From Thiovibrio frasassiensis (GTDB taxonomy: Bacteria > Desulfobacterota > Desulfobulbia > Desulfobulbales > Desulfurivibrionaceae): DNA of 64,000 nt. Location: contig NZ_JAPHEH010000001.1 in assembly GCF_029607905.1 (NCBI RefSeq), positions 1,269,530-1,333,529 of the forward strand, in the 5' to 3' direction. Both the position numbers and the translations under genes were made by a program. The notes under the pieces are model-generated. The model was not told the origin of the DNA. It worked only from the letters and a program-made list of their open reading frames with translations, and did not search any database. Position 1 is the first letter of the stretch. Every line of letters starts with the position of its first letter. Positions 36,581-58,131 of this stretch are shown here, piece after piece.

Positions 36581-37642
36581 ATGCGCAGAGGTGTTTTTCT
36601 CTGGCTCTGCCTGGGGCTGGTTTTCGCTTTCCGGGTCGAGCTCTGCCTGGCCGGAGCCGGAGATGATCTCACGGAAAAACAGTTTGTCTGTCCGTTTCCG
36701 GATATGACCACCGATGTTTTGCCCCTGACCTATGCCCAGATCAGGGAGGATGCGGTCTCCGTCTATGCTCAGGCGCAGGATGAGGCTGCCGGGGTTCCCC
36801 CTGTTCGGGTAACGAGAAAGGGTTTTATGTGGGTCAGCCTCAGCGATCCTCAGCCGGTCATGGTGAACGGGCAGGAGTGGTACAGGGTCAATGAAAGGGA
36901 ATACATTAGAGCGGACAAACTCAAGCTGGCCAAACCCTCGGGTTTTCAAGGGGTCATGGTGCCCCGGGATTTTGACAAGCAATTTGCCTGGATGATTTTT
37001 CATACCCGCGTTTCCCCTGCCCCTGGAGTACTTCCCCTAGAAGAGGAGGACCCGGCCGTGTTGCCGGCGCGGTCCTTGGTCATTGTCCACGAGATCCGGG
37101 AAGTCGAGCAGCGCAAGTGGTGCAGGATCGGCACCGGAGTCTGGGTGCCGTATCGCCGTCTCGCCATGGTGATCCCGAGGCTCCGCCCGGAGGAGGTTGG
37201 AGAGTCGGAGCGGTGGATCGAGGTGAATCTTACCGAGCAGACCTTATCCGCCTATGAGGGGGATCGCTTGATTTTTGCCACCCTGATCTCTTCCGGGGAT
37301 GAACGGTTTCCAACGATCAAGGGGTTGTTTCGCATCTGGGCCAAGGTCAGAATCGGCAAGATGAGCGGCGGGGAAGATGATTCGGATCGCTATTTTGTGG
37401 AAGATGTGCCGTGGCATATGTATTTTTATCAATCCTACGGATTGCACACCTCGTACTGGCATGATTTTTTCGGACTGCCCAATTCCCACGGTTGCGTGAA
37501 TCTGGCGCCGAAGGATGCTCTCTGGCTCTTTGAGTGGACGAGTCCGAAAGCCGGCAAGGGGAATTGGCAGGAGGCGACCCGGAGCGATCCGGGAACTTGG
37601 GTCTGGGTGCATGAAACTCCTCCCGTGGTTACGGGGGAGTGA
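36581..37642 (+). CDS. Exported L,D-transpeptidase (YkuD domain)
   Basis: A 353-residue protein with a signal peptide (1-24, LCLGLVFAFRVELCLAGA). An N-terminal region of about 190 residues contains SH3-like strands (VRVTRKGFMWVSL, WYRVNEREYIRADKLKL). The YkuD catalytic domain starts at WIEVNLTEQTLSAYEGDRLIFATLISSG and ends with the active site SHGCVNLAPKDALWLFEW, with the Cys nucleophile intact. It would make 3-3 peptidoglycan cross-links or anchor proteins in the periplasm. It is convergent, with a 6-nt gap, with a second and different YkuD protein. Confidence 0.9.
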   Translation: MRRGVFLWLCLGLVFAFRVELCLAGAGDDLTEKQFVCPFPDMTTDVLPLTYAQIREDAVSVYAQAQDEAAGVPPVRVTRKGFMWVSLSDPQPVMVNGQEWYRVNEREYIRADKLKLAKPSGFQGVMVPRDFDKQFAWMIFHTRVSPAPGVLPLEEEDPAVLPARSLVIVHEIREVEQRKWCRIGTGVWVPYRRLAMVIPRLRPEEVGESERWIEVNLTEQTLSAYEGDRLIFATLISSGDERFPTIKGLFRIWAKVRIGKMSGGEDDSDRYFVEDVPWHMYFYQSYGLHTSYWHDFFGLPNSHGCVNLAPKDALWLFEWTSPKAGKGNWQEATRSDPGTWVWVHETPPVVTGE

Positions 37643-37648
37643 AACGGC

Positions 37649-38320
37649 TTATTGCTGGATGACAACCTCGGTGCCCAGGGCGATGACCTTGAATAATTCC
37701 TCAATGTCCTTGTTGCACAGGGCAACGCAGCCGTATGTCCAGCTCCATTTTTCGGCTTCGCCATGGATGAAGATCTCGCCGCCCAGGGGGGTGTCCCAGG
37801 GGGGGATGGATTTGCGGGAGATCCTTTCAATGATCCGGTTGTAGTCTCCTTGACTGATGAGCTTTTGTTCAAGCCCCCGCTCGGCGTCTTGAATACTCGG
37901 ATAGCTTAAGCCCAGCGACAGATAGTATTTGCTGCGGGGGTTTTTCATGCAGATATAATAGCTTCCTTCGGGGGTGCGTTTGTCTCCCTGGCGGATCTTG
38001 TCGCCAACCGGGTTGAACCCAAGGATGACCGGATAGGCGCGCAACAGCTTTTCCTCGGAATAGAGGAGGAGCTTTTTTTTTGCCTTTTTGATCACTATTT
38101 TGGGATCCTTGAGGGGTGCAGTGACTGGCAGGCCAGGGTCGCGATCCTCATCATCCTGATGGTCGTCTTTGGTCTCCGTCGACGGGAGCTGGGCTGTTTG
38201 GGAGGGAGGGTTTGTCGCGCAACCGTTGAGCAGGAAGGTGAAAAGCAGGAGGAGTAGTGCGAAGAGAAAGGCCGGTGGGGCTGAGGACTCCATAACGGAG
38301 TGTCGCGAGATTCTGATCAT
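37649..38320 (-). CDS. YafK-like L,D-transpeptidase lipoprotein
   Basis: About 223 residues. The N-terminal hydrophobic stretch ends in the lipobox LLNGC (cleavage before Cys at about 34), indicating an outer- or inner-membrane lipoprotein. A charged linker (ETKDDHQDDEDRD) leads to the YkuD domain: KAKKKLLLYSEEKLLRAYPVILGFNPVGDKIRQGDKRTPEG, IFIHGEAEKWSWTYGCVAL. The active-site motif is YGCVAL instead of HGCVN, a variant seen in the YafK/ErfK-like branch. I chose ATG 38320; 38293 is possible and a longer frame to 38422 is unlikely. No good Shine-Dalgarno is seen. Confidence 0.85.
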   Translation of the reverse strand: MIRISRHSVMESSAPPAFLFALLLLLFTFLLNGCATNPPSQTAQLPSTETKDDHQDDEDRDPGLPVTAPLKDPKIVIKKAKKKLLLYSEEKLLRAYPVILGFNPVGDKIRQGDKRTPEGSYYICMKNPRSKYYLSLGLSYPSIQDAERGLEQKLISQGDYNRIIERISRKSIPPWDTPLGGEIFIHGEAEKWSWTYGCVALCNKDIEELFKVIALGTEVVIQQ

Positions 38321-38485
38321 AATGCGATATCCATCATTAGGTTCAGTTGCAGCGCTGTCTGTGGGCCGCCATAGGGTCGAAAATTTGAGGTGAGGCAAGG
38401 AGCTTAGGGCGTTTCTCTGCAACGAGTCAGTAAAATCATACGATATCGAAAGCGAAATTGCACAGAAAAACGTGGTGTTCGCTGC

Positions 38486-38519
38486 AAAAAAAAATCCCCG
38501 GCCAATAATGGCCAGGGAT
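38486..38519 (-). terminator. Intrinsic terminator of the sulfur-relay operon
   Basis: On the minus strand ATCCCTGGCC / GGCCGGGGAT (38519-38510 with 38503-38494, one G-U), loop of 6, is followed by a long U-tract (A-run 38486-38494). It lies 34 nt past the last gene of the tusA-dsrE cluster. Confidence 0.9.
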
Positions 38520-38553
38520 TTGCTTCAGTCGCGATCGGCTGAAAAAGTCTTGC

Positions 38554-38727
38554 TTACCACCAGCAGATGGTCTGGTCTACAGAGAAAACCTTATCAAGCA
38601 ATGCACTGTAGTCCGGGCTCTCAACATTGAGGTCAAAAGACTCGCAGTCACGACCCTCGGAGACGATCTCCACCAATTTCTTGGTGTCGTCATTGGGCTC
38701 AGAACGGTATACATTCAAGAGTTTCAT
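38554..38727 (-). CDS. 57-residue protein of the sulfur-relay operon, TusB/DsrH-like C-terminus
   Basis: A 57-residue acidic protein (MKLLNVYRSEPNDDTKKLV start, ending SVDQTICWW). ATG 38727 follows AAGGAG; the longer frame to 38811 overlaps the neighbour and is rejected. The ending DYSALLDKVFSVDQTICWW resembles the C-terminal DY...F/L...W of TusB/DsrH, whereas the N-terminus resembles the opening of small DsrE-like folds. At little over half the length of TusB (about 95), it looks like a compact relative. Two Cys are present (RDCESF and TICWW). It is the last gene before the terminator. The function is inferred from context only. Confidence 0.75.
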   Translation of the reverse strand: MKLLNVYRSEPNDDTKKLVEIVSEGRDCESFDLNVESPDYSALLDKVFSVDQTICWW

Positions 38728-38764
38728 CGGAACACTCCTTCTTGTTGATTGGTCAATAATTAAC

Positions 38765-39079
38765 TTAGCTCTTGTCGGAACGCAGGATGCCGTAGGGGAT
38801 AATGATCTCAAGGTCGCGCAGCTGCTTGCCGATCTCTTCGAGGGAGATCTTCACCATGCCGTGTTTTTCGACATTGGCGTCCACGGTGGTGTACACCTCG
38901 CCTTCCATGTCACGAACCCACTCGATGTTCTCCTTGTGGTAGTCGCTCAGGTCGGTAAGCTCGTTGTTCATAACATAGGCATACGAGTACATGTTCTCGA
39001 CGGCCAACCCCAGGGTGGAGCGGATGCCGTCCAGGGTGTACTCCTTGTTTACTAACAGAAAACCTACTTTCTTGGACAT
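38765..39079 (-). CDS. DsrE/DsrF (TusC)-like sulfur-relay protein
   Basis: A 104-residue protein. The start KKVGFLLVNKEYTLDGIRSTLGLAVENMYSYAYVMNNEL has the TusC/DsrF layout (beta strand, Arg/Thr helix, GLAxEN). The middle has DYHKENIEWVRDMEGEVYTTVDANVEKHG. There is no Cys at all, so unlike DsrE it cannot carry persulfide and is probably structural. ATG 39079 follows AAGGAGAG. It lies 10 nt after dsrE-like and 37 nt before the 57-residue gene on the same transcript. Confidence 0.82.
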   Translation of the reverse strand: MSKKVGFLLVNKEYTLDGIRSTLGLAVENMYSYAYVMNNELTDLSDYHKENIEWVRDMEGEVYTTVDANVEKHGMVKISLEEIGKQLRDLEIIIPYGILRSDKS

Positions 39080-39089
39080 GGTTCTCTCC

Positions 39090-39404
39090 TTATAAGGTCA
39101 GGTAGCATTCGTAGTCTTCGATGATTTCGCCATGCTGGGACTGGGTGGCCATTTTCTTGGCCTCAAGACCCTTGGGAATATCGGCGGGATCATAGCCTGC
39201 GTTCTTGTAGCTGTCCACGCAGATGGACACGTCGTCCGCCAGTTCGCAAAGCTCCGGGAACTCCTTGCACTTGGTCAGATGCACACCGAACCAGCTGAAG
39301 AAAACCTTTACTTTGGAGCCCTTGGCCTTGGCGGCCTTGGTGATCCCCATAACATGGCGCATGTTTTGGGGAGAGGTAACAAAAATACCTAAACTTTTAG
39401 CCAT
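39090..39404 (-). CDS. DsrE-like sulfur-relay protein
   Basis: A 104-residue DsrE/peroxiredoxin-like fold protein. SLGIFVTSPQNMRHVMGITKAAKAKGSKVKVFFSWFGVHLTKC opens the fold, and Cys62 in DDVSICVDSYKNAGYD is at the position of the persulfide-carrying Cys of DsrE/TusD. Further Cys are at 46, 53 and near the end (ECYLTL). ATG 39404 follows AGGAGACAGG. It lies between tusA and the DsrF-like gene and should pass sulfane sulfur with TusA. Confidence 0.85.
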   Translation of the reverse strand: MAKSLGIFVTSPQNMRHVMGITKAAKAKGSKVKVFFSWFGVHLTKCKEFPELCELADDVSICVDSYKNAGYDPADIPKGLEAKKMATQSQHGEIIEDYECYLTL

Positions 39405-39474
39405 TTCCTGTCTCCTGATGCAAAATTAGAGGTACAGGCTTTTGCCCGCACCGCGTCGTATGGAGTAAAAAAGC

Positions 39475-39735
39475 CTACTTTTTCTGGAGGTAGAAGCGGA
39501 TGAACCCGGAATCTTCTTTCTCGCCAAGATAGATATGGCCGGAACGGGTGCACCAGCCGGGCAGATCGTTACGCGAGCCAGGATCGGTGCCGAGGATCTC
39601 AAGGATCTCGCCGGCGTTGATCTTGTCCATTTCTTTCTTGGTGCGCAGCAGGGGCATGGGGCAGCTCAGGCCTTTAGCATCCAGGGTGCGTGTCGGGGTG
39701 ATACCATCCGGGGCTACTTTGATATCGTCGCTCAT
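39475..39735 (-). CDS. tusA: TusA-family sulfur carrier
   Basis: An 86-residue protein with the TusA signature TRTLDAKGLSCPMPLLRTKKEMDKINAGEILEIL, where Cys25 of CPMP carries the persulfide. The family fold end GHIYLGEKEDSGFIRFYLQKK is present, and two further Cys are absent except WCTRSG. ATG 39735 follows TAAGGAGGAAACC, a strong Shine-Dalgarno. It is the first gene of the minus-strand relay operon and is divergent from the YeeE/YedE transporter, a well-known partner of TusA. Confidence 0.93.
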   Translation of the reverse strand: MSDDIKVAPDGITPTRTLDAKGLSCPMPLLRTKKEMDKINAGEILEILGTDPGSRNDLPGWCTRSGHIYLGEKEDSGFIRFYLQKK

Positions 39736-40194
39736 GGTTTCCTCCTTAAAAAGGGTATAGGGGTAATTTAGGAAAACTAAAAAATAAGCGGCAGCAGATA
39801 GTGCGCTGCGCTGAACTCAAATCCCTCTCCGCAATGGGGAGGATTTTTTACGCAAAAAACAACCAGAGATCTCATGTAACATTGGGTCTCTACCAATATT
39901 CATGGGGCATGTCAAGGGAATTTATGAATGGCGGTTCATGCTCGCCCAGGGAGGAAAAGAGACCGTTTTTCAAGAGGATTAGTGGATCTTTGCCTGCCGG
40001 ATTGGGAGGAAGTTCGGGGGGTGGATGGTGGGAAAATGGTATGGCAAACTTGACAAAATTTTATGGCGCGGGTAAAGGGGGTAACGGTACATTTTCATGA
40101 TGCGTGGGAAGTTTTAACAGGGATTTTCTGTTTTTTTGTTGAAAGGCTTATCGGTCTGTAATCATTTGCAAAAAATGGGAAGAGGAGGTTTGGG

Positions 40195-41457
40195 ATGGGC
40201 GAAGAAAGCGTTATGGGGAGCAAGGTCAAGGAGCTGTATAAGAAGTTGTGCAAGGATGAGTGGAATGCCGTCACCGCCGGGATCATCGTCGCCTTTTTGA
40301 GCGTGCTGATTCTGGTCTGGGCTCGGCCTTGGGGCGCGGTCGGCGCGATGCGCAACTGGGGTGAGTGGCTCATTTACGGAGCCGGCATGTGGGATACCCT
40401 TGGTCTGTGGGAAAAGGCGATCCCCAAGAGCCCCCTGCTGGACACCGGTTCGGTCATCGGTATCGGCTTTATTGCCGGGGCTTTTGTCTCCGCCAATCTG
40501 GGTGACAACTTCGACATCCGCATCCCTCCGGTTTTGGAGATGGTTAAAGGCATGATCGCCGGTATCCTCATGGGTATCGGATCAACCCTGGCCGGTGGTT
40601 GTAACGTCGGCGGCATGTATAACGCCATCGGCAACCTCGCGGCCAATGGCTTTGCCATGTGGCTTGGGTTGGTCCTGGGTGTAGTGCTTGGCCTCAAGTA
40701 TATCTACTGGGAGATGGAGCATATTTCCTGGGGTTCCGGTGGTGCCAAGACCATCGAGGTTCCGGTGGTCATGCGTCGGTTGCTGGCAGTGGCCGGTTTG
40801 GTTGGTTTGATCTGGGGCGCCTATGCCTACGGGGATAAGGTGATCAGTGTGGCTGATTACGACAACCTCGGCGCAGAAGACTATCTCGGCATTGCCGGTG
40901 GTTTGAGCGGTCTGTTGCTGATTGCCGCCGGTCTTGGCTATACCATGCAGCGCGGTCGCTGGTGTATGGTGCAGGGCTTCCGTGAGCCGCACATGACCGG
41001 GGATTGGAGCTTGGCCAAGGGCGTCATGGTAAGCATCCTGATGCTCGCCGTCGGTATTGCGGTGGTCAAGGCCACCGGGCTGCGTGAGCCGGTGCATTAT
41101 GTGCGCGGCACCTTCGGGATCGGCGGCGTGCTCGGCGGCTTCATCTTCGGCCTGGGCGCCATGCTGGCCGGCGGCTGCGGTTCCGGCACCCTCTGGCGGG
41201 TAGGTGAGGGTCAGATCAAGCTGTGGCTGGTGGTCCCTTTCTTTGGGGTAACCAATGCCATCATGAATCCTCTCTTCGACCGGTGGGGTTTGACCGAGGG
41301 CACTGCCGAGGCAAGCGGTCCGCTGGGCAAGTGGGTCTATATGCCTGATGCCCTGGGCTACGGCGGCACCCTGGCCATCATTGCGCTGGCCATGTGTCTC
41401 TGGTACCTGATTGCCAGCTGGAATGAGGATACCGGCAAGCTCATGGTTGAGATGTAA
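40195..41457 (+). CDS. YeeE/YedE (TsuA-like) sulfur-compound transporter
   Basis: A 420-residue polytopic membrane protein with about 10-12 hydrophobic segments. It has the two YeeE/YedE repeats: TLAGGCNVGGMYNAIGNLAANG (Cys136) and MLAGGCGSGTLWRVGEGQ. A third conserved Cys lies in MQRGRWCMVQGFREPHMTGDW. In TsuA these Cys relay thiosulfate across the membrane; the substrate here may be thiosulfate or another sulfane-sulfur compound. It starts at ATG 40195 behind AGAGGAGG. The 459-nt intergenic region to tusA (39736-40194) is AT-rich; I see a possible TTGACA at 40049 without a clear -10, and no gene. It ends in a strong terminator. Confidence 0.92.
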   Translation: MGEESVMGSKVKELYKKLCKDEWNAVTAGIIVAFLSVLILVWARPWGAVGAMRNWGEWLIYGAGMWDTLGLWEKAIPKSPLLDTGSVIGIGFIAGAFVSANLGDNFDIRIPPVLEMVKGMIAGILMGIGSTLAGGCNVGGMYNAIGNLAANGFAMWLGLVLGVVLGLKYIYWEMEHISWGSGGAKTIEVPVVMRRLLAVAGLVGLIWGAYAYGDKVISVADYDNLGAEDYLGIAGGLSGLLLIAAGLGYTMQRGRWCMVQGFREPHMTGDWSLAKGVMVSILMLAVGIAVVKATGLREPVHYVRGTFGIGGVLGGFIFGLGAMLAGGCGSGTLWRVGEGQIKLWLVVPFFGVTNAIMNPLFDRWGLTEGTAEASGPLGKWVYMPDALGYGGTLAIIALAMCLWYLIASWNEDTGKLMVEM

Positions 41458-41494: not shown

Positions 41495-41535
41495 GATCGC
41501 ATTCCCCGGTGTTCCGGGGGGTGCGATTTTTTTTG
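41495..41535 (+). terminator. Intrinsic terminator after the YeeE/YedE gene
   Basis: Nested stem ATCGCA...TGCGAT (41496-41501 with 41522-41527) enclosing CCCCGG / CCGGGG (41504-41509 with 41514-41519), loop TGTT, is followed by eight T (41527-41534). Confidence 0.93.
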
Positions 41536-41578: not shown

Positions 41579-41775
41579 ACAGTGCTTTGCCTGTCGTCCT
41601 AGCATTGTGGTAGGCGGTTGTGCAAGCCTCAGACATTGAAAGCTTGTGCCGGCACAAGGGGCCGTAGCAAAGCTGTGGAGCTGTCAAGCGGCGATGTTCT
41701 GAAATGTAGAGGGTTTTCCGCGGCCCCTAAGCCTCATGCCGAGGCGCGCCATTTTTGTGTCCGCAGGGTGGTTTT
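41579..41775 (+). promoter_or_regulatory. Candidate promoter and structured leader upstream of the REC-GAF-kinase
   Basis: TTGACA near 41578 with a weak TAGCAT 18 nt later precedes about 170 nt of hairpin-rich leader. It contains the perfect 16-nt palindrome CTTGTGCCGGCACAAG (41643-41658), GTAGCAAAGCTGTGGAGCTG, and GCCTC / GAGGC near 41731-41745 shortly before a T-run. I cannot place it in a known riboswitch class. Confidence 0.4.
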
Positions 41776-43710
41776 ATGGTCGAGGCGGTTTCCGGGCTAC
41801 ACCAACATGTCTCCATTTCCTTGGGGCAACTGCTGCAAAACGGCGAGATTGTCGCCATTGTTGATGATGATGCGGCAATCCGCGAGCCGCTCAGGGTCTA
41901 TTTTGAAGAGCATGGGTTGGCCGTGGCTGAATGCGCCTCGGCGACAGAGCTTATGCAGGTGCTGGCCTCCCGGAATGTGGCCCTGGTTCTTCTTGACATC
42001 GGTCTTCCTGATACCGATGGCCTTTCTCTCCTCCCCCAGATTGTAGGGCAATACCCCGATGCCGCAGTGGTGATGCTCACCGGCGTTTCCGAGCTGCGGG
42101 TGGTTCTGGACTGCATGCGCAAGGGCGCCACCGATTACCTGTCCAAGCCGGTGCAGTTTGAAGAAATATTCCATGTGGCGCGCAAGGCCCTGGAGAAGCG
42201 GCGGCTGGTTTTTGAAAACCGTAAATATCAGGAGGAGTTGGAGGAGGCGCATTTCAGGATCCAGCTGCTGCATCAGTTGTCGGTGAAGATGAATAGCGTC
42301 TATTTGAGCACCGTGGAGCTTGATCAGATTTTACGGGCGGTTCTGGTGGGGATCACCTCTCGGGAGGGGTTGGGCTTTAACCGGGCGTTTCTGGCCATGT
42401 TCGATGGGGATGGACGGTTTTTGCGGGGGAAGATGGCCATTGGTCCAGGTTCTCGGGAAGAGGCCGGACGTGTTTGGGAGGAGATCGAAGAACGGGACCT
42501 TAATTTTTTAGAAATCGTTGATAATTTGAAGGAAACCACCACAAGCCATGACGCAGCGGTCAATGCCATTGTTAAGAATTTGGTGATTTCGGTCGAAGAG
42601 ACGGGGAATATTTTGATCAATTCCGTGCTGAGCCGCAGGAGTTTCAGGGTTTCGCCGGAAAACGGCTGGGTGCCGAACCCCATTGAGCGGCGGATCGGCA
42701 ATGGCAACAGGCGGTACAACGGGGCTGCGCTGCATGAGCGTCGGGAAAATGCGGAGGTGGGGGCGCTTGCTGTTCTTGGGGTGCCCAGGGATCTCATCAA
42801 CATCCTTGATGAGGATTCCTTTGTCGTGGTGCCGCTCTATTCCCCTGGCCGCGCCTTCGGGGTGATTATTGCCGATAATTATGTGACCCGGCGGTTCATT
42901 GAGGACGGTCATGTCGGAGCCCTGGAGCTTTTTGCCAGTCAGGCCAGCCTGGCCATCGAACAGAGTCATCTGTACAACGAGATGCAGCAGAAGGTTGCCG
43001 AGCTTGAGGCGGTGAACCAAGAGCTTGATCGGAACAAGGATCTGCTGGTCGAAGCGGAGCGTTATTCCGCCTTGGGTCATATGGCGGCCCAGTTGGTCCA
43101 TATCGTCAGGAACCCCATTACCTCCATTGGCGGGGTCTCCCGGATCCTGAAGAAAAAAAATGTCGATGCCGAGTGGGAAAAATATCTGAATGTAATTATC
43201 CACGAAACCGAGCGGGTGGAGTCCACCCTGGAGGATCTTTTTGATTTTGTGGGGCAAGGCGAGATCCACCAGGAGGAACTCCCGCTCTGCGCGCTGATTA
43301 GGAAAACGGCCCTCTTGCTTCAGTCGAGCATGGCGAAGCATGGCGTGACCTGGGAGATGGAATGTCCCTCGCCGGAACCGGTTGTCCAAGGAGATCTGCA
43401 TCAGATCCGCCTGGTGTTTCTCCATCTGTTCAAGAATGCGGTGGAGGCCATGGGTGATGGGGGGAGGTTGACCATTGTCGTGGCTACCCAGGAAGGGCAG
43501 GTCATTGTCTCGGTCATCGATACCGGCCCCGGAATCCCTGAATCCTATCTGGATAAGGCCAAGGATCCGTTTTTTACCACCAAGACATATGGCACCGGTA
43601 TGGGGTTGACCCTGGTGGAACGGATTGTCCGTGCCCATGGCGGCAGTTTTTCTCTCAAGCCCCACCTGGGCGGCGGTCTGGAAGTCAGGGTGGTTCTGCC
43701 TCTCCCCTAA
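41776..43710 (+). CDS. Hybrid REC-GAF-histidine kinase
   Basis: A soluble protein of about 644 residues without TM segments. The REC domain has acidic pair VDDDAAIREPL, phospho-Asp in LVLLDIGLPDTDG and Lys in LSKPVQFEE. A coiled linker leads to a GAF domain (about 160-395, GFNRAFLAMFDGDGRFLRG ... VVPLYSPGRAFGVIIADN). HisKA has a phospho-acceptor His in GHMAAQLVHIVRNPITSIGG. HATPase has LFKNAVEAMGDGG, DTGPGIPESYLDKAKDPFFTTKTYGTGMGLTL. The REC-first order suggests it is itself an output target of another kinase. I chose ATG 41776 (MVEAVSG); the frame opens at a TTG at 41755. A possible structured leader precedes it. Confidence 0.9.
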   Translation: MVEAVSGLHQHVSISLGQLLQNGEIVAIVDDDAAIREPLRVYFEEHGLAVAECASATELMQVLASRNVALVLLDIGLPDTDGLSLLPQIVGQYPDAAVVMLTGVSELRVVLDCMRKGATDYLSKPVQFEEIFHVARKALEKRRLVFENRKYQEELEEAHFRIQLLHQLSVKMNSVYLSTVELDQILRAVLVGITSREGLGFNRAFLAMFDGDGRFLRGKMAIGPGSREEAGRVWEEIEERDLNFLEIVDNLKETTTSHDAAVNAIVKNLVISVEETGNILINSVLSRRSFRVSPENGWVPNPIERRIGNGNRRYNGAALHERRENAEVGALAVLGVPRDLINILDEDSFVVVPLYSPGRAFGVIIADNYVTRRFIEDGHVGALELFASQASLAIEQSHLYNEMQQKVAELEAVNQELDRNKDLLVEAERYSALGHMAAQLVHIVRNPITSIGGVSRILKKKNVDAEWEKYLNVIIHETERVESTLEDLFDFVGQGEIHQEELPLCALIRKTALLLQSSMAKHGVTWEMECPSPEPVVQGDLHQIRLVFLHLFKNAVEAMGDGGRLTIVVATQEGQVIVSVIDTGPGIPESYLDKAKDPFFTTKTYGTGMGLTLVERIVRAHGGSFSLKPHLGGGLEVRVVLPLP

Positions 43711-49142: not shown

Positions 49143-50279
49143 TTAATACATTTCCTTGACGTCTTCGCCGGTAATCTCGGCCACGGTCAGCTTTTTTGCA
49201 TCCATCAGCTTCCAGACGTAGGCGATATAAGCGAGAACAACCGGTACGGCCAGGGCCACATAGCTCATGACCGTGAGGGTGTACTTGCTGCTGGAAGCGT
49301 TGTAAATGGTGAGGCTCGATTGCAGGTCGGTGAGCGACGGGTAAAAGGCGGTGTTATGGTAGCCGGCCAGGGAAAAGATGGCCAGCCCCACCAGGACGGT
49401 GCCGATTCCGCCAAACCAGATGCCGCTGTTCTTGCCGAGAAACCCGGTGGCGGCAACGCCGTAGATCACCGAACCCAACCCTCCCAGCAGCAGAACCAGG
49501 ACTACGGGCATCCCCAGTAAGTTGTTGAGGTATTTGCCCTTCTCCATGAAGACCAGGCCTGTAGCCGGATCAACGGCAAACCCTTCCATGGTCACCAGAC
49601 TGATCAGGATGAAGAGCAAAAAGGGGAGCGCCCAGAGGAGGTTGATCCAGCTCGCCTTGCGCGCTCGTTTGACTAAGTTCTCATGCTCAACGTGGTTGAC
49701 GATGTACATGGCTCCCAAGATGCGGGCCAGGAAGACCAGGAACAGCCCGAAGGCAAGGTTGAAGGGGTTGAGTGCGGCTTCCAGTCCGTGGTAAGGCGTT
49801 GCCCAGGTTACGGAGTTGTAGAGGTTCAGGCTGAAGCGGGAACCGGTGAAAAAGGTGCCCACTGCGGCGCCGATCAGGAGGATGCCGACACTGCCGTTGA
49901 TGCACATGAATATCTCATAGGTCCGGGCGCCGAGCACGTTGTCCGGTTTCTTGCGGTATTCGTAGCTCACCGCCTGGATGATAAAGGTGAAGAGGATGAG
50001 CATCCAGACCCAGTACGCTCCGCCGAAGCTGGTGGCGTAAAAGAGCGGAAAGGCCGCGAACAGGGCGCCGCCGAAAAGAACCAGGGTGGTGAAGGTCAGT
50101 TCCCACTTGCGGCCCATGGCGTTGATAATCAAGGATTTTTCCTCTTCGCTGCTGGCCGTGGTAAAGATCAGGGTCTGCCCGCCTTGCACAAAGGTCAGGA
50201 AGAGAAAGAGCGAGCCGACCACGGAGGCGATCAGCCACCAGAGCTGCTGTAAAACTGAGTGATCCAGGTTTCCTATCAT
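49143..50279 (-). CDS. cydB: Cytochrome bd oxidase subunit II
   Basis: A 378-residue membrane subunit of the cytochrome bd quinol oxidase with about eight to nine TM segments. CydB features include WWLIASVVGSLFLFLTFVQGGQTLI, LTFTTLVLFGGALFAAFPLFYATSFGGAYWVW and AYWVWMLILFTFIIQAVSYEYRKKPDN. ATG 50279 is 4 nt after the cydA stop. The longer frame to 50300 would overlap cydA. This CydB helps the bd oxidase reduce O2 with high affinity, here most likely for oxygen protection in an anaerobe. Confidence 0.94.
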   Translation of the reverse strand: MIGNLDHSVLQQLWWLIASVVGSLFLFLTFVQGGQTLIFTTASSEEEKSLIINAMGRKWELTFTTLVLFGGALFAAFPLFYATSFGGAYWVWMLILFTFIIQAVSYEYRKKPDNVLGARTYEIFMCINGSVGILLIGAAVGTFFTGSRFSLNLYNSVTWATPYHGLEAALNPFNLAFGLFLVFLARILGAMYIVNHVEHENLVKRARKASWINLLWALPFLLFILISLVTMEGFAVDPATGLVFMEKGKYLNNLLGMPVVLVLLLGGLGSVIYGVAATGFLGKNSGIWFGGIGTVLVGLAIFSLAGYHNTAFYPSLTDLQSSLTIYNASSSKYTLTVMSYVALAVPVVLAYIAYVWKLMDAKKLTVAEITGEDVKEMY

Positions 50280-50283
50280 TGTC

Positions 50284-51813
50284 TTATGCCTCCGGTCCAA
50301 TCTTGATTTGCTTCATCATGATGCGAATCTCTGCGAGTAATAATGCGGTAAACAGGGTCAGGAACATGAAAAAGGTGATCTGCACATTGCTTGCGGCAAT
50401 GTTGGTGCTTGCCACGCCCACCGGCAGCAGTCCATAGATGGCCCAGGGTTGCCGACCCACCTCGGCCACGATCCAGCCGGCCTGTTGGGCCACATAGCCC
50501 AGGAAGATGGAAAAGAAGCAGAGCAGGTTGAGCCAGCGCTGGTACTCCAGGGTGCCCTTGAAGGCGAAGTAAAGAACCGCCAGGAAGATCACCGGAAACA
50601 GGGTGCCCAGGACCACCATGATGTGAAAGCTGTAGAAGGTCGTGGCCACCGGGGGTGCGGCCTCGATCGGATTGTTGAGGTAGCCGTAGCCAAGATCTCC
50701 TTTGTGCTGGTCAAAGAGGGCCAAGGCCGCTGCGGCTTCCTCGGCATCCCCTTTATCCTTGGCATATTTGTAGCGGGCCAGTTCGGCCAGGGCGATCTTG
50801 CCGGTGACCATGCGTTGTTCGGCGCCGACAACATTGCGCTCGGGGTTACCGAAAACCAGATCGTTGATCCCGGGGACAAAGCTGTTGGGGTCGCGGTTGG
50901 CCAAAAGTGAGAGCAGGCCGGGGATTTTTACCTCTTGGTAGAAGGCGGGCAGGTCATCCCCTGGTTTTTTCTTGGAGTTGATGATGCCCATGGCAACGAT
51001 GGGGGCTTTCTCCTGCCCCACGTACAAGCCCTCCATGGCCGCCAGTTTCATGGGCTGACGTTGGGCCACGTTGAAGGCAGCCTCGTCGCCGGTAAAGCCG
51101 ACAAAGACGGAGGCGATGAAGCCGAAGACCGCGGCAACCACCATGCTGCGCTTGGCCATTTTCTGGTGCCGTTCCTGCAGGAGAAAGAGGGCGGAGATGC
51201 CCACGACAAAGAGGGAGGCGAGCAGGAAGGCGGAGCTGGTGGTATGGGTGAACTTATGGACCGCCACCGGGGAAAGGGCGACATCCCAGAAATTCTGCAT
51301 TTCAAAACGGGCCTTGTCCGGGTTAAAGGCCATGCCGGTGGGAAACTGCATCCAGCCGTTGGCTACGAGAATCCAGACCGCCGAGAGGTTGGAGCCAATG
51401 GCGACCATCCAGGTGGAAAAGAGGTGAAAACCCTTGGAAACCCGATGCCAGCCGAAGAACATCACGGCAAAGAAGGTGGCCTCGAGAAAGAAGGCGAAGA
51501 TCCCCTCAATGGCCAGGGGGGCGCCAAAAATGTCCCCCACCATCCAGGAGTAGTTGGACCAGTTGGTGCCGAACTGGAATTCCAGAATGATTCCGGTGGC
51601 GACCCCGATGGCGAAGTTGATGCCGAAAAGGGTCGTCCAGAATTTGGTCAGTTTCTTCCACTCCTCATTGCCGGTCTTGACATAGATGGATTCAAAAAAT
51701 GCGATGAGAAAGGAGAGCCCCAGAGTTAAGGGTACAAAAATCCAGTGATACATCGCGGTCAGAGCAAATTGCGCCCTGGCCCAATCCACAGTGGTCAGAA
51801 TTGGATCTCCCAC
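50284..51813 (-). CDS. cydA: Cytochrome bd oxidase subunit I
   Basis: A 509-residue quinol oxidase subunit carrying hemes b558, b595 and d. The N-terminus DWARAQFALTAMYHWIFVPLTLGLSFLIAFFE holds the b595 ligand His. AVHKFTHTTSSAFLLASLFVVG holds the b558 His and GWIVAEVGRQPWAIYGLLP the conserved GRQPW. The quinol-binding Q-loop segment, KKKPGDDLPAFYQEVKIPGLLSLLANRD to PERNVVGAEQRM, resembles the short type. The start is GTG 51811-51813 behind AAGGAGG. It is the second gene of the DUF4492-cydA-cydB-cydX-like operon. Confidence 0.95.
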   Translation of the reverse strand: MGDPILTTVDWARAQFALTAMYHWIFVPLTLGLSFLIAFFESIYVKTGNEEWKKLTKFWTTLFGINFAIGVATGIILEFQFGTNWSNYSWMVGDIFGAPLAIEGIFAFFLEATFFAVMFFGWHRVSKGFHLFSTWMVAIGSNLSAVWILVANGWMQFPTGMAFNPDKARFEMQNFWDVALSPVAVHKFTHTTSSAFLLASLFVVGISALFLLQERHQKMAKRSMVVAAVFGFIASVFVGFTGDEAAFNVAQRQPMKLAAMEGLYVGQEKAPIVAMGIINSKKKPGDDLPAFYQEVKIPGLLSLLANRDPNSFVPGINDLVFGNPERNVVGAEQRMVTGKIALAELARYKYAKDKGDAEEAAAALALFDQHKGDLGYGYLNNPIEAAPPVATTFYSFHIMVVLGTLFPVIFLAVLYFAFKGTLEYQRWLNLLCFFSIFLGYVAQQAGWIVAEVGRQPWAIYGLLPVGVASTNIAASNVQITFFMFLTLFTALLLAEIRIMMKQIKIGPEA

Positions 51814-51901
51814 AATAACCTCCTTGTGTGTGCTGGTGGCAAGAGTATGTGCCTGCCATGATTAAGTTATGCTGTAAAAAAAACGAAGTCGAATGCTTGA
51901 A

Positions 51902-52126
51902 TCAACGAGTAGGCAATGTTTGGGTAAGATTTTCCAGAACATGGCCGGCCCGGTCACTCTCGGTGGTGAAATTGGTATTGAGGTAATTGGGAAAGAAAAA
52001 AAGTTTGAGAACGGCAAACAAAATGAACAGTTTTATGGCGATGATCTTCCACAAGGTTTTGCCCACCACCATGGAGCGGAAGCCGTCTCGATAAAAAAAA
52101 TATACTTGTTTTGGCAGTGCGGTCAT
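51902..52126 (-). CDS. DUF4492 family small protein linked to cytochrome bd
   Basis: A 74-residue protein matching DUF4492 (VYFFYRDGFRSMVVGKTLWKIIAIKLFILFAVLKLFFFPNYL). It has one central TM helix, with the YRDGFRSM..GKTLW-x-I signature at the membrane entry. The family is frequently found immediately upstream of cydAB in Bacteroidetes and Epsilonproteobacteria, and its role is unknown. ATG 52126 is preceded by GGGAG. It leads the cyd operon in this order; 88 nt separate it from cydA. Confidence 0.85.
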   Translation of the reverse strand: MTALPKQVYFFYRDGFRSMVVGKTLWKIIAIKLFILFAVLKLFFFPNYLNTNFTTESDRAGHVLENLTQTLPTR

Positions 52127-52192
52127 GCGCGATTTCTCCCGGCGGACATAAACGATCTTCTTCTTTGTTGTATATGGAGGACATTTGCCCGG

Positions 52193-52663
52193 TCAAATTA
52201 TTTTTTTTGCATCGGTGCGGTTATGGTCGTCAATCCCGGGAAAAGGTGTCAGGCAGCAGGTCTCTTCCGCAGCCAGGGTGGCAAAGTTCGCCTCCTGCAG
52301 AGTGGCCCGGAGCTGCCGGTTGGCTTTGGCCCAGACCTGGTGCACGGTGCAGAACGGGCTTTTATGACAGGATTCGGGCCGGCCCACGCAATCGTTCAGC
52401 GATATTTCGCCGATGATCGCCTCGATGACCGCCAGCAAAGTGATCTCTGATGGCTCGGCCAGCAGACGGTAGCCGCCGTTCGCCCCTTGCAGGATTTCAA
52501 TGATTCCGGCTCTGGCCAGCTGTTGGGCGATCTTGGCGAGAAAGTGCGGCGGCACATCGGTGCGCACGGCGATCTCCTTTCTGCTGACCAGCGTTCCTTT
52601 GCCATGTCTGGCAAGGTGCTGCACACAGCGTATGCCATATTCACCCGCGCGGGTAAGTCTCAT
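52193..52663 (-). CDS. Rrf2-family [Fe-S] transcriptional regulator
   Basis: A 156-residue winged-helix regulator. The N-terminal wHTH is MRLTRAGEYGIRCVQHLARHGKG ... VPPHFLAKIAQQLARAGII ... GANGGYRL. The Cys cluster DCVGRPESCHKSPFC (about 110-124) matches the three-Cys [2Fe-2S] site of IscR/NsrR-type proteins. It is transcribed toward the cyd operon and ends 67 nt upstream of DUF4492. A perfect 8-9-8 inverted repeat 26 nt before its ATG is a likely autoregulatory site. It probably senses O2, NO or Fe-S status and controls cyd. Confidence 0.9.
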   Translation of the reverse strand: MRLTRAGEYGIRCVQHLARHGKGTLVSRKEIAVRTDVPPHFLAKIAQQLARAGIIEILQGANGGYRLLAEPSEITLLAVIEAIIGEISLNDCVGRPESCHKSPFCTVHQVWAKANRQLRATLQEANFATLAAEETCCLTPFPGIDDHNRTDAKKII

Positions 52664-52688
52664 GGTGCGATCCGAGGTTAATGTGGAT

Positions 52689-52713
52689 ATATAAGATATT
52701 TTTAGTCTTATAT
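52689..52713. promoter_or_regulatory. Inverted repeat in front of the Rrf2 gene (candidate operator)
   Basis: ATATAAGA / TCTTATAT (52689-52696 with 52706-52713), separated by 9 nt, lies 26-50 nt upstream of the Rrf2 ATG. On the minus strand it reads ATATAAGACTAAAAATATCT..., sharing GACTAAA with the IscR type 1 half-site. Confidence 0.6.
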
Positions 52714-52791
52714 CGAACTTGAGATATGGTTGTCAAGAAAAAATGCGAGAAGATGTCCGGTGAAATTGGCGGAGCGCGTGTGGGCCTGTCT

Positions 52792-53754
52792 TTATGCGGC
52801 GCTCGAGGCTGCAGGGGGTTTTTTCTCGTACCTATGTGTGGTGGCGATACATTTGCTCCGGAACTTGAGCTTGGTGAGGCCGTAGCGGATAACACCGGAA
52901 ACGTTGCCCACCGCATCGGCCACGGAGAGGCACGTTTCCAAGACAGGGATCATTTTGAGGGGAAAGAGATTTTTAAACCGGCGGGCCATGATATGGGGTG
53001 GCTTTTTATCGCAAATATCCCGGATAAACTGGTTGGAGAAAACAGCAAGATTTTGCAGGATCGGCAGTGGTTCAACCAGGGATTCTGCTTCGGGTGGGTT
53101 GGAATCCATGCAGGCGATGATGGTCTCGGAAAAATTTCAGAAACGGGCAATTTCCTGGCCGATTTCATGGAAGGTGAGTTGTTTGAACATCAACCGACAC
53201 ATGGCATCTTCAGAACTGCCGCTTGTTGTCCCCGCCTCAATGCGCCGATATACATCCGGAAAATAGATGGTCATGATTATGCGGCCTAGATCGTGTAGAA
53301 GCGCACAGACATAGGCTTCTTCCGGAGAGACTGGCATTTTGTATTGCTGGACCAGGTGCTTGCTGAGATTGGCGCTGAGCAAGGAGATGGCCATCTGCTT
53401 GCTCAACCCTTCCTTTTCGCCACCGGAACTGAGAAATTCTTCGATAAGGCTGATGGAGATAGCAAGTTCGCGGACAATATCGAGGCCAAGAGCCGATACG
53501 GCCCGTTCAATGGTGGTGACGCGTGTCCCGCGAAGATAATAGGCCGAGTTGGCAACCTGAAGAACCTTGTTGGTGAGGGAATAATCTTTGAGGATAACAG
53601 CGGAAACGCAGTGTACCGAAGCGCGTTTGTTGAGGGTTATCTTGAGGACCTCATTCACGTGTCCGGAAATGGCTGGAAGTTCGCTCAAATTCATCTTGGC
53701 GAAAATCTCAGTGAGTTTCTGATTTTTTACAACCGAACTGGTGTCTTGCTCCAC
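52792..53754 (-). pseudogene. HDOD domain signalling protein interrupted by an in-frame TGA
   Basis: A 320-codon HDOD gene. The GTG start (53752-53754) follows AAGGGAG. The first 205 codons encode LPAISGHVNEVLKITLNKRAS, the HDOD core ILKDYSLTNKVLQVANSAYYL, EEAYVCALLHDLGRIIMTIYFPDVY and FHEIGQEIARF. A TGA at 53137-53139 follows in frame. The same frame then continues NFSETIIACMDSNPPEAESLVEPLPILQNLAVFSNQFIRD to 52792. Family members have Trp just at this position (ARxWNxx), so TGG to TGA is the simplest reading. The second half of the consensus HH is absent. Either the gene is broken or the truncated 205-residue protein is used. Confidence 0.75.
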
Positions 53755-53910
53755 AAGCTCCCTTCTTTAGTTAAAACCGGCTAACGCGCTGAGCGTAAAA
53801 TACGCAGAATCAATCAGATAAAGTAAAATTTTATAAAATATACCACTTCGTCACAGAGAGCGCAATGGGCAAGGGCAAAGGGCAAGAGAATGGAGAGAGA
53901 AAGGGCACGG

Positions 53911-54606
53911 TTATCCAGAAGCAGTCGCGAGAGCGGCAAGGGCTTCGCGGATGAGCTGACCCGAAGTGACGGTGGTTAAGCGGTGCTCTGCATAGAGAGG
54001 GAATGCAACGGTTGCTTGGGGGCAGTGTTTGATCTTTTCTGCCGCCGCAACAACCCGGAGCAGACCGAGGGCTCGGGCGGCCAGGGAACAGACGATGGGG
54101 TCTGCGGATTCGAGGTAGGGGAGAAGATAACGGGGTGCTTGCCAGGAGTGGAGAAGCTCCGGGCTGACCTGAGCCAGGCGAGCGATTCCCCACATAAGGC
54201 CGCGCTGAAGCGCCGGGAGTTCGAGATAAAAGCCGTCCTCCCGCATGAAGGAAACCAGGATTTTGGTGTATTCCGCGGCAAGGGCGGGGTGGGAGGCGAG
54301 GCATTCGGCCATGGCTTCGGGAGCGCCCCAGCCGATACCGCCGGATTCGTCGTTGAGGCTCCACATAAAGCGGCGTATCACGATTCGGGCTGCTTCCAGG
54401 TCCTGGTCGGCAAGCCGGGCCGCGGTAACACCCATGGCGGTGATTGCGTGCCAGCGGGTCAACTGGTCTGCGTGGCAGATTCCGGAGAACAGGGCGTTGA
54501 GCAGACTTTGGGGCGGGTGGCGTGCCAGTTCGGAAAGAATCTCGGCGGGCACCGATCCGGAAAGCAGGCTGAGAACGGATTTTTTGAGGCTTCTCTGGCT
54601 GGGCAT
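53911..54606 (-). CDS. HEAT-repeat-like conserved protein, DVU0298-type
   Basis: A 231-residue soluble, helix-rich protein built of HEAT-like hairpins (LARHPPQSLLNALFSGICHADQLTRWHAITAMGVTAARLADQD; LLPYLESADPIVCSLAARALGLLRVVAAAEKI). A conserved-looking core is ARIVIRRFMWSLNDESGGIGWGAPEAMAECLA. This resembles a DVU0298-like family found in sulfate reducers, by pattern recognition only. ATG 54606. It is followed by about 160 nt of noncoding sequence toward the HDOD gene. HEAT domains usually mediate protein contacts; no partner is evident. Confidence 0.75.
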   Translation of the reverse strand: MPSQRSLKKSVLSLLSGSVPAEILSELARHPPQSLLNALFSGICHADQLTRWHAITAMGVTAARLADQDLEAARIVIRRFMWSLNDESGGIGWGAPEAMAECLASHPALAAEYTKILVSFMREDGFYLELPALQRGLMWGIARLAQVSPELLHSWQAPRYLLPYLESADPIVCSLAARALGLLRVVAAAEKIKHCPQATVAFPLYAEHRLTTVTSGQLIREALAALATASG

Positions 54607-54673
54607 GGGGTGGCGTTATTGTCCGGCAAGGCGTTCCCTGCCGCTAAGGATCGGCAGGGAACTGGAGGAGTCC

Positions 54674-55867
54674 CTATTTGTTCATTGCTTCGGCCACAGC
54701 ACTGCCCAGTTCGGAGCAGGCCTTAAGTGCTGCGTGGGTGGGGACGTTCTTGATCTTGATCCCCTCACCGATGATCTCAAAACCCATCTCTGTCATGTGG
54801 CCGGTGAGATGCTTGACCGCCTCGCCGCTCCAGCCAAACGAACCGAAGGCAGCGCCGATCTTGTCTTTCGGGCGCAACCCTTTCATGTAGGTGATGATGT
54901 CGGCCATGGCCGGCATGATGTTGTTGTTCAGGGTTGGCGAGCCGAGAATGACCGCCTTGGCATCGAGCACCTCGGTGATGATGTCGCTACGATGATTTTT
55001 GCGGACATGCAGCATTTTTACATTGGTGATCCCTGCCTGGAGCAGGCTGTTCATCACGGCCTTGGCCATCTTTTCGGTGCTGTGCCACATGGTGTCGTAG
55101 ATGATGACCGCCTTATTTATTGTGGCGCCGCGGCTCCAGCGGTCGTAGGCTTCAAGGATGGTCTGCGGCGAGGTGCGCCAGATCACGCCATGGTCCGGGG
55201 CGATCATATCGATTTGCAAACCCATCTCCGTGACCTGGGCAAGCAGTTTCTGGACGATGGGCGAGAAGATCATCAGGATGTTGGCATAATACTTGGAAGC
55301 GTGCACCATGAGCTCGTGGGGGTCCACCTCGTCGTCAAAACGCTCCGAGGTGGCCCAGTGGTGTCCGAAGGCATCGCTGGAGATGAGCAGCTTGTCCTCG
55401 GGAATATAGGAGAACATGCTGTCCGGCCAGTGGAGCATCTTGGTTTCGAGAAACTGCACGGTCCTTTTGCCGAGGGTGATCGAATCCCCGGTGGCCACGA
55501 CCTCGAAAGGCCAGTCTTCCCGGTGGAAATGCTCGATCAGGGCTTTCTTGCCCATGGGCGAGCAAAAGATCTTTTCCGGTTTGATGAGGTCGATCATCTC
55601 CGGCAGGGAGCCGGAGTGGTCCATCTCCACATGGTTGACGATGATATAGTCAATCTTGCTGGGGTCTCCCAAAACCTGATAGAGATGGTGGATCAGGTCG
55701 CCCTTCACCTCTTTTTTCACGGTGTCGAACAGAGCGATCTTCTCGTCCTTGACCAGATAGGCGTTGTAGCTTGTCCCTTTTTCCGTGGAATAGCCGTGGA
55801 AGTCGCGGATGTTCCAGTCCACGGCGCCAACCCAGTATATATCTTTCTTGATTTCTATTGCAGCCAT
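54674..55867 (-). CDS. roo: Flavodiiron protein (rubredoxin:oxygen oxidoreductase)
   Basis: A 397-residue O2/NO reductase. The N-terminal metallo-beta-lactamase-like diiron domain has ligands His79, Glu81, Asp83 and His84 in NHVEMDHSG, then DAFGHH and APDHGVIWR. The C-terminal flavodoxin domain has the FMN P-loop region IIYDTMWHSTEKMAKA and GSPTLNNN / GSFGWSG. ATG 55867 follows GTGAGGA; the frame open to 55999 is promoter and leader. In Desulfovibrio this protein reduces O2 to water with electrons from rubredoxin. It is downstream of the perR-rbr-dfx-ftn operon on the same strand but has its own promoter. Confidence 0.95.
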   Translation of the reverse strand: MAAIEIKKDIYWVGAVDWNIRDFHGYSTEKGTSYNAYLVKDEKIALFDTVKKEVKGDLIHHLYQVLGDPSKIDYIIVNHVEMDHSGSLPEMIDLIKPEKIFCSPMGKKALIEHFHREDWPFEVVATGDSITLGKRTVQFLETKMLHWPDSMFSYIPEDKLLISSDAFGHHWATSERFDDEVDPHELMVHASKYYANILMIFSPIVQKLLAQVTEMGLQIDMIAPDHGVIWRTSPQTILEAYDRWSRGATINKAVIIYDTMWHSTEKMAKAVMNSLLQAGITNVKMLHVRKNHRSDIITEVLDAKAVILGSPTLNNNIMPAMADIITYMKGLRPKDKIGAAFGSFGWSGEAVKHLTGHMTEMGFEIIGEGIKIKNVPTHAALKACSELGSAVAEAMNK

Positions 55868-55944
55868 GGTGTCCTCACTTGTGAGCCGTTGTCCAAAAAA
55901 AACTGTAACCGCAGTGTTGCCGGCGGGGAAATGACGTGCAAGGT

Positions 55945-55973
55945 ATAATAAGGAGGCGTTTCGAAATAAGCAA
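55945..55973 (-). promoter_or_regulatory. Sigma-70 type promoter of the flavodiiron gene
   Basis: On the minus strand TTGCTT, 17 nt, TATTAT (55973-55968 and 55950-55945), about 78 nt upstream of the ATG. The rest of 55868-56029 shows no gene. Confidence 0.5.
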
Positions 55974-56033
55974 GAAGATAGCAACGTTGTGTACGTCACT
56001 GGCCATGGCTATGATTATTTTGAAACAGTACCT

Positions 56034-56065
56034 AAAAAAAACTGCCGACCGTTTCCGGTCGGCAG
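56034..56065 (-). terminator. Intrinsic terminator of the perR-rbr-dfx-ftn operon
   Basis: On the minus strand CTGCCGACCG / CGGTCGGCAG (56065-56056 with 56051-56042), loop GAAA, is followed by a U-tract (A-run 56034-56041). Confidence 0.93.
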
Positions 56066-56117
56066 GGTCTTGTTTTTTCGCTCGGATTGGACTTCTCCCC
56101 GGGAGGAGAAAAGAGCG

Positions 56118-56633
56118 TTACTCTCCCTTTGGTGGAGGCGGGGTGAAGACCCGTTGTCCCAGCGTTGCGTCCAGGGTGAAGAGGGCGGTGGCGTCCTTGC
56201 CGATGAGTTTGAGCTTGTCAAGGACCGCACCGACATTGGCCTCCTCCTCCACCTGCTCGGAGACAAACCACTGCAGGAAGATGTTGGTGGCATGATCCCG
56301 TTCGTCCAGGGCCAGGTTGACCAGATTGTTGATCAACCCGGTTACCTTTTGCTCATGGCTGAGCACTTCCTGAAAGACGTGCAGAGTCGATTTCCAGTCG
56401 GTGGGCGGCTGCTTGATCGCCTTTAAGGCCACCCGGCCACCCCGCTCATTGACATAACGAAAGAATTTCATGCCATGGAACCATTCCTCCTGGGTCTGGG
56501 CCTGCATCCACTGCGCCGCGCCGGGCAAGCCGACGGAGTCGAAATAGGTGGACATGGACAGGTACATGTAGGAGGAGTAAAATTCCGCATTTATCTGCTC
56601 GTTGAGAGCCTTTTCCATGGTTTTGCTCAGCAT
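56118..56633 (-). CDS. ftnA: Ferritin
   Basis: A 171-residue non-heme ferritin. The start MLSKTMEKALNEQINAEFYSSYMYLSMSTYFDSVGLPGAAQWM and the diiron ligand pattern EEWFHGMKFFRYVNERGG are present, followed by the four-helix bundle and HVFQEVLSHEQKVTGLINNLV. ATG 56633 lies 1 nt from the dfx stop and has GGAAGG as Shine-Dalgarno. It stores iron and limits Fenton chemistry; the C-terminal tail VFTPPPPKGE is Pro-rich. It is the last gene of the operon, followed by a terminator. Confidence 0.95.
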   Translation of the reverse strand: MLSKTMEKALNEQINAEFYSSYMYLSMSTYFDSVGLPGAAQWMQAQTQEEWFHGMKFFRYVNERGGRVALKAIKQPPTDWKSTLHVFQEVLSHEQKVTGLINNLVNLALDERDHATNIFLQWFVSEQVEEEANVGAVLDKLKLIGKDATALFTLDATLGQRVFTPPPPKGE

Positions 56634-56634
56634 T

Positions 56635-57009
56635 TTAAGCCTTCCAGAGTCCGTGGAGATTGCAGAATTCGCGGGCGCTGACCTGGGGTGCGTCCACGGC
56701 GAAAAAAGCCTCCGGAGCATCGCCTGGTTTGAGGAATTGGCGGTAGGCCTTGTCCCCGGCGATAAGCTCGATCCACTCAATATGGTGCTTTTCTTCCATG
56801 GGATGGGCAACCGCTCCGACCTTCACCTTGTAGCCGCCCGCCACCTTTTCGATCACCGGCACGTGTTTTTCCTTGGCGGCATCCACGGTGTTTTCGGTGA
56901 GCAGGGTCATGGGCTGGCCGCAGCAGACCAACTCGCCGACTCCGCCGTGCAGAACTTCAACAATATTGCCGCATAACTCACATTTGTACACTTGCAGTTT
57001 TTCAGCCAT
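56635..57009 (-). CDS. dfx: Desulfoferrodoxin (superoxide reductase)
   Basis: A 124-residue 2Fe superoxide reductase. The N-terminal desulforedoxin-like centre is ligated by Cys10, Cys13, Cys29 and Cys30. The C-terminal SOR centre has [17 protein letters not shown] and CNLHGLW (the Cys and His ligands). It reduces superoxide to peroxide without making O2. ATG 57009 is preceded by AAGGAGAA, and the frame open to 57060 is not needed. It lies between rbr and ftn, the classical superoxide-peroxide detoxification pair. Confidence 0.96.
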
Positions 57010-57025
57010 AGCAGTTCTCCTTAAT

Positions 57026-57601: not shown

Positions 57602-57713
57602 GGGAAACCTCCTGCGTGGAACGCGATGATTGTAAGGGGAAAGCGGTTGGTTTTTTTGTATTGTACATGGTTCTCCGTGGTCTGTGTGGGAAAAAAAACA
57701 GGCCAGGCGGAAA

Positions 57714-58112: not shown

Positions 58113-58131
58113 GACTTCCTCCCGAGTTTGA

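Follow-up and report, generated by a model that had tools for sequence, protein, structure and literature searches.

Gene content of the locus

The 64,000-nucleotide stretch of the Thiovibrio frasassiensis genome analyzed here (contig NZ_JAPHEH010000001.1, positions 1,269,530 to 1,333,529; in the following, the window) contains a minus-strand operon in which tusA is joined by a dsrE-like and a dsrF-like gene and by a gene for a protein of 57 residues, and, separated from this operon by 459 bases, the divergent gene of a transporter. We identify these genes, with considerable confidence, as a DsrEFH type II sulfur-transferase cluster (formerly the YTD cluster) of a Desulfobulbales bacterium, and discuss a more tentative case that the 57-residue protein is a shortened DsrH. 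An earlier reading made from the letters of the DNA (the sequence-only reading) had given the same operon order, and all five genes were recovered where it had placed them (coordinates are those of the window):

38554..38727, minus strand: 57-residue protein, putative short DsrH (DsrH type II); fixed length; linked to the DsrH family through an intermediate, L177, described below
38765..39079, minus strand: DsrF type II-like subunit, 104 residues, without Cys in the window copy; model fold and profile match
39090..39404, minus strand: DsrE type II-like subunit, 104 residues, predicted active Cys62; conserved Cys and profile match
39475..39735, minus strand: TusA sulfur carrier, 86 residues, Cys25 in a CPMP motif; PF01206, 84 bits
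40195..41457, plus strand: YedE-type Sulf_transp transporter, 420 residues; Cys136, Cys257, and Cys328 in three family motifs; PF04143, 159.9 bits

TusA matched a TusA sequence of the PDB with an E value of 5.6e-12. The DsrE-like protein scored 19.4 bits with the Pfam DsrE model, under the gathering score of 22.7, and at an E value of 0.01 this model matched 12 of 35 diverse type II DsrE members. The column of Cys62 is Cys in all 61 aligned DsrE sequences and aligns with the canonical DsrE Cys. For the DsrF-like protein, Pfam returned a single chance-level match (BORCS6, E value 0.064), and none of 33 type II DsrF members matched any Pfam family. Neither of the two window proteins (P0002 and P0003) matched TIGR03012 or TIGR03010 at an E value of 1, and the profiles of the type II E and F subunits found only weak or chance matches among PDB sequences. 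The structure model of the DsrF-like protein (predicted local distance difference test, pLDDT, 92.6) matched, in VIA, YchN with a Z score of 10.2, two DsrE/DsrF-like proteins with 10.0 and 9.2, a DsrE sulfurtransferase with 8.9, and chain A of both TusBCD and DsrEFH with 8.8. Below these, the first natural protein that is clearly unrelated scores 6.8. YchN is a member of the DsrE family. As modelled, the DsrF-like subunit carries the DsrE/DsrF fold. Its description as Cys-free holds for the window copy and not for the family, in which only 5 of 57 other complete copies lack Cys; since these share it, the absence of Cys was dismissed as a special trait.

The transporter belongs to the Sulf_transp family, matches TsuA structures at an E value of 2e-19, and has the YeeE/YedE Cys motifs that had been seen in it, in common with the thiosulfate transporter TsuA (YeeE). 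However, the label TsuA-like can be kept at the superfamily level only. The protein reaches 92 of 645 and 91.7 of 400 bits with the TsuA models, far under their cut-offs, and its halves are not colinear with TsuA: residues 241-365 align with TsuA 6-129, and residues 61-162 with TsuA 217-319. With the YedE/FdhT model the alignment is colinear (residues 20-411 on 4-380, 85.2 bits). The reversed order relative to TsuA may reflect a circular permutation, and a narrow literature search yielded nothing on swapped transporter halves.

Conservation and identity of the cluster

The sequence-only reading was open to refutation if the 57-residue protein was not conserved with the cluster, which proved not to be the case. 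Of 58 relatives, 53 have the open reading frame, the poorest of their best matches having an E value of 4.4e-7, and it is present in 39 of 39 relatives of high quality, defined by a completeness of 90% or more and a contamination of 5% or less. In named genomes, for which the best 80 loci of 146 confirmed relatives were taken, the gene could be read whole in 79 loci, and its length was invariably 57 residues. The order tusA-E-F-H on one strand, H being the small gene, was found in 69 of these 80 loci; eight others are broken by a contig end, and the remaining three (L106, L160, and L167) have E-F-H, with tusA not found by our script. One locus, L099, labelled 'Desulfurivibrio sp.', is a relative at 89% identity. 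The transporter gene is divergent and upstream in all 56 loci where both it and tusA were found, the arrangement that had been read for the window.

To this we added a draw of 394 genomes from the phylum, 82 of which contain a type II-like DsrE; 60 of the 87 match places were fetched. H was complete in 55 of these loci, and in one (L036) it runs into a contig end. No H was found in the other four: L061 and L081 are located at contig ends, L085 has neither F nor H adjoining, and L089 has F and no H. Depending on the chosen start, the lengths of the complete copies are 56-63 residues, with 57 residues in 34, and their C-terminus has Trp-Trp in 54 of 55 cases and Trp in all. Such a fixed length, in the named and the phylum loci alike, rules out a truncated gene. 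A catalytic role of Cys55 could also be discarded, as 17 of the 55 copies end in CWW, 36 end in SWW, and 35 have no Cys at all. The order is F-H-E instead of E-F-H in L068, L072, L073, and L076. L089, the second place in genome G201, has a DsrE-DsrF pair with no 57-residue gene found adjoining, and is a natural test of whether H is dispensable. Genome G047 has two clusters of different subtypes (L033 and L034), with a DsrE of 104 residues and Cys62 in one, and of 110 residues and Cys67 in the other.

The YTD cluster, a name also used in PMC9751629, consists of yedE-related, tusA, and dsrE-like genes and two or three conserved hypotheticals (PMC12998232, PMC8780430). In 2026, its DsrE-like protein and two of the hypotheticals were published as DsrEFH type II, with sulfur transfer in vitro (PMC13293266). 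That study counted 985 genomes with these genes and obtained the three Electronema proteins together on purification, in a ratio of about 1:1:1; with the cable-bacterium proteins, TusA loads DsrE on Cys67, the trimer in turn loading DsrC; the Electronema trimer, of 33 kDa, has Cys67 and six further Cys, two of them in DsrF. Modelling published in the same year gave the same trimer, with DALI Z scores of 12.4, 6.9, and 4.7 for E, F, and H (PMC13047784).

The locus agrees with the YTD cluster in all of its content, that is, a yedE-related gene, tusA, a dsrE-like gene, and two conserved hypotheticals. With DsrEFH type II (PMC13293266) it shares the gene set and order, with the three dsrEFH-type genes in synteny and accompanied by tusA and yeeE/yedE, the single conserved active-site Cys of DsrE, the three subunits, and the co-occurrence with a reductive dsrAB elsewhere in the genome; in contrast to Electronema, the window DsrE has 104 residues and Cys62 instead of Cys67, and its DsrF has no Cys instead of two. 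Indeed, the genome encodes DsrA (569.6 bits), DsrD (96.6 bits) beside dsrAB, DsrB, assigned by position and domains, DsrC with two C-terminal Cys, and AprA (932.8 bits), and has no TIGR03011 match at an E value of 1. Because gene content, order, and active-site Cys agree, the locus is very probably a DsrEFH type II cluster.

The Cys counts of Electronema offer a further comparison. Among the 55 complete phylum clusters, three fit them, two of which, L042 and L046, come from the order of the window (Cys67 in E, two Cys in F, seven in all, 31.9 kDa). The third, L053, comes from outside the order and fits as well, which counts against the identification; the arithmetic is therefore support and not proof, and its use alone to identify the cable-bacterium genes was rejected. 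It is a further weakness that the identification is drawn from gene order, the conserved Cys, and this arithmetic.

The combination of DsrEFH, TusA, and an import protein proposed in the sequence-only reading is borne out, with the small protein in the place of DsrH/TusB. The suggestion that this component was undescribed had to be given up, since it is one of the two YTD hypotheticals and, by position, the DsrH type II of PMC13293266 and the DsrH-like Chp2 of PMC13047784. Taken together, the locus is an ordinary member of a real, well-conserved, and already described system.

Ancestry of the 57-residue protein

Direct searches gave little to place the small protein. The window copy has no match in Pfam and none to the canonical DsrH/TusB models (TIGR03011, PF04077), and neither the protein nor its profile found anything over any cut-off in Pfam, NCBIfam, or the PDB sequences. 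Of 26 diverse H members, 2 matched TIGR03011 in the NCBIfam search, with a best E value of 0.028 and among chance families. Of five structure models, the best has a pLDDT of 96.7 (88.6 to 59.7 for the rest) and a beta-alpha-beta-alpha-beta topology.

The link to DsrH comes from an intermediate. In the phylum sample, the canonical DsrH/TusB model matched 2 of 394 genomes, one of them over the cut-off, compared with the 82 that have a type II-like DsrE. The weaker match, L177 (genome G088), belongs to a DsrE-DsrF-DsrH cluster at L177:695-1686 and is a DsrH of 84 residues, a length between the canonical 95-102 and the 56-63 of type II; the neighbourhoods of L177 and of L176, which has a DsrH of canonical length, were read as open reading frames only. 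The L177 protein scores 25.2 bits with Pfam DsrH in hmmscan (cut-off 24.4) and 19.9 bits in the whole-genome search, and 35.1 bits with TIGR03011, under the cut-off of 49.2. A profile of 85 type II H proteins, built without L177, gives it 30.7 bits, which none of 5000 shuffles reached (maximum 8.9). The match is in two pieces, profile positions 1-13 on residues 1-13 and 38-56 on residues 66-84, and between them 24 profile positions face 52 residues. When a 26-row H profile was run against 79 whole genomes around G088, the end of the L177 DsrH was recovered with an E value of 8.4e-4; 14 of the 79 genomes matched in all, and G073, which has a canonical DsrH, was not among them. A PF04077 search around G088 gave no more intermediates, only G088, G073, and three weak matches (E values 0.014-0.05).

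We also compared the type II profiles with canonical ones made of L177, L176, and the E. coli Tus proteins. The probabilities were 97.9 for E with DsrE/TusD, 88.4 for F with DsrF/TusC, and 96.2 for H, the last over the C-terminal 19 columns only, against 0.2-6.8 for all off-diagonal pairs, and none of 150 column shuffles reached any of the diagonal scores. The resemblance of the end of the small protein to TusB/DsrH, as first read from the sequence, is thus seen again in these 19 columns, and extends to its start through the L177 DsrH. Altogether, the system is like canonical DsrEFH/TusBCD in subunit order, in the active Cys of DsrE, in the modelled DsrE/DsrF fold of the F-like subunit, and, via L177, in both ends of DsrH; it is unlike it in that the window H has 57 residues, compared with 95-102 in E. 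coli TusB and L176, and in lacking matches to TIGR03010-03012. On balance, we regard it as probable that DsrEFH type II and canonical DsrEFH share ancestry subunit by subunit. On this account, a stretch of some 27 residues would have been lost from the middle of DsrH, after strand 2 and before the last helix, the L177 protein would be a surviving intermediate, and the protein of 57 residues would represent DsrH in its smallest working form, a Cys-independent scaffold whose C-terminal Trp-Trp seals the trimer.

Several results weigh against common ancestry and for the alternative that the trimer is a structural analogue of DsrEFH in which an unrelated small protein has been recruited to the place of DsrH. 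Such an analogy is argued in PMC13047784, and neither of the 2026 papers (PMC13293266, PMC13047784) commits itself to a shared origin with canonical DsrEFH, which is questioned or left open there. Besides the absence of Pfam and NCBIfam matches over cut-off, the fold search with the 57-residue model, which bears on the second ground for refutation of the sequence-only reading (no fold similarity to TusB), was unspecific: Foldseek and VIA returned no TusB/DsrH chain (best VIA Z score 5.3, to HypX), a result that is no evidence that the folds differ. With L177 left out, the profile-profile probability falls to 1.4 for F and to 6.8 for H. E. coli TusB and the L176 DsrH are not clear of shuffles with the H profile (reached by 144 and 26 of 5000, respectively), L176 DsrF and E. 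coli TusC are not picked out by the F profile, and the E profile gives E. coli TusC 6.8 bits, barely above the best of 2000 shuffles (6.6). However, recruitment of an unrelated protein leaves unexplained that the L177 DsrH fits the H profile at both ends and was found again genome-wide, that E, F, and H match their counterparts one-to-one, and that the DsrE link persists without L177 (87.5). We consider it unlikely. Because the F and H links vanish without L177, the reading of the 57-residue protein as a DsrH without about 27 central residues is the best one, and provisional; the common ancestry of F and H rests on one genome, and the change is presumed to have been a loss, not a gain, of residues. 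A narrow search of the open-licence literature for DsrEFH type II with a shortening or internal deletion of DsrH brought up PMC13293266 only, and the evidence that type II DsrH is a shortened homologue of canonical DsrH may be new.

As for function, it has been proposed that the cluster is specific to sulfur disproportionation, in which case imported thiosulfate or sulfur would be split, the DsrEFH-like trimer would be the acceptor, and the genes would be no marker of sulfide oxidation. All five YTD proteins are more abundant in Desulfolithobacter during thiosulfate disproportionation (PMC9751629), and PMC12998232 found the cluster in every S0 disproportionator that it examined. However, the latter paper also records it in strains with evidence against disproportionation, and according to PMC13293266 the genes are found in only 25 of 63 cultured disproportionators and in many sulfate reducers that do not disproportionate, and thiosulfate gave no persulfidation. 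The role in sulfide oxidation or disproportionation, and with it the use of the cluster as a disproportionation marker, is disputed in print; we hold a disproportionation-specific role to be possible and rather doubtful. Far less credible is a YedE/YedF-like supply of selenium or assimilatory sulfur in place of dissimilatory sulfur. The colinearity of the transporter with the YedE/FdhT model and the YedF matches of TusA point that way, but these scores (85.2 of 350 bits for the transporter, 40.9 of 79 and 30.6 of 110 bits for TusA) are under the cut-offs of those families, and three DsrEFH-like genes stand in the operon of a genome with dsrABD, dsrC, and aprA.

Flanking signals and proposed sulfur route

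Both transcription units of the DsrEFH type II locus are flanked by candidate signals:

38492..38521, minus strand: strong terminator-like hairpin 3' of the tusA operon; 13-pair stem and T run, fold z -5.24
41495..41528, plus strand: terminator-like hairpin 3' of the transporter gene; 15-pair stem and T run
39887..39915, minus strand: putative promoter-like block of the tusA operon; TTGACA, 17 bases, TAGAGA
40050..40078, plus strand: putative promoter-like block of the transporter gene; TTGACA, 17 bases, TAAAGG

The terminator scan found 7 sites, with 4.3 expected from shuffles. Both TTGACA elements, one per strand, are conserved in all 12 sequences compared, from the window and from 11 near relatives, and the paired blocks in the 459-base gap are candidate divergent promoters; a consensus promoter scan gave 2 sites, compared with 2.3 in shuffles, and neither block was among them.

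Just past the transporter gene, 41755-43710 encodes a protein that combines a response regulator with a histidine kinase and also has GAF matches. Beyond the operon terminator lie an L,D-transpeptidase (YkuD) gene at 37649-38422 and, at 36581-37642, a convergent neighbour that looks similar by eye. Farther away, an apparent run of oxygen-defence genes at 49143-58349, also read by eye and presumptive in its identities, includes cytochrome bd oxidase subunits, an Rrf2-like regulator, flavodiiron-like and ferritin-/rubrerythrin-like proteins, and a Fur-like regulator. A transfer-messenger RNA (tmRNA) with the tag ADDYSYAVAA is located at 21421-21774.

Given dsrABD, dsrC, and aprA in the genome, the likely route of sulfur is from YedE to Cys25 of TusA, Cys62 of DsrE, DsrC, and DsrAB. 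The YedE-type protein would carry sulfane sulfur across the membrane, and TusA, by analogy with the cable-bacterium proteins, would accept it on Cys25 and hand it to Cys62 of DsrE in the DsrE-DsrF-DsrH trimer, which in turn would load DsrC. DsrC may then feed DsrAB running oxidatively, or serve the oxidative arm of disproportionation. The small protein, presumably a DsrH cut to its beta-alpha-beta-alpha-beta core, has no conserved Cys and is therefore most likely a scaffold of the trimer and not a sulfur carrier.

The cluster may mark sulfur-oxidizing or disproportionating capacity in organisms that are classed as sulfate reducers by their dsr genes. The ancestry link bears on the 2026 dispute over whether DsrEFH type II is a divergent homologue or a structural analogue, and the 57-residue protein would provide a natural minimal DsrH with which the purpose of this subunit could be tested.

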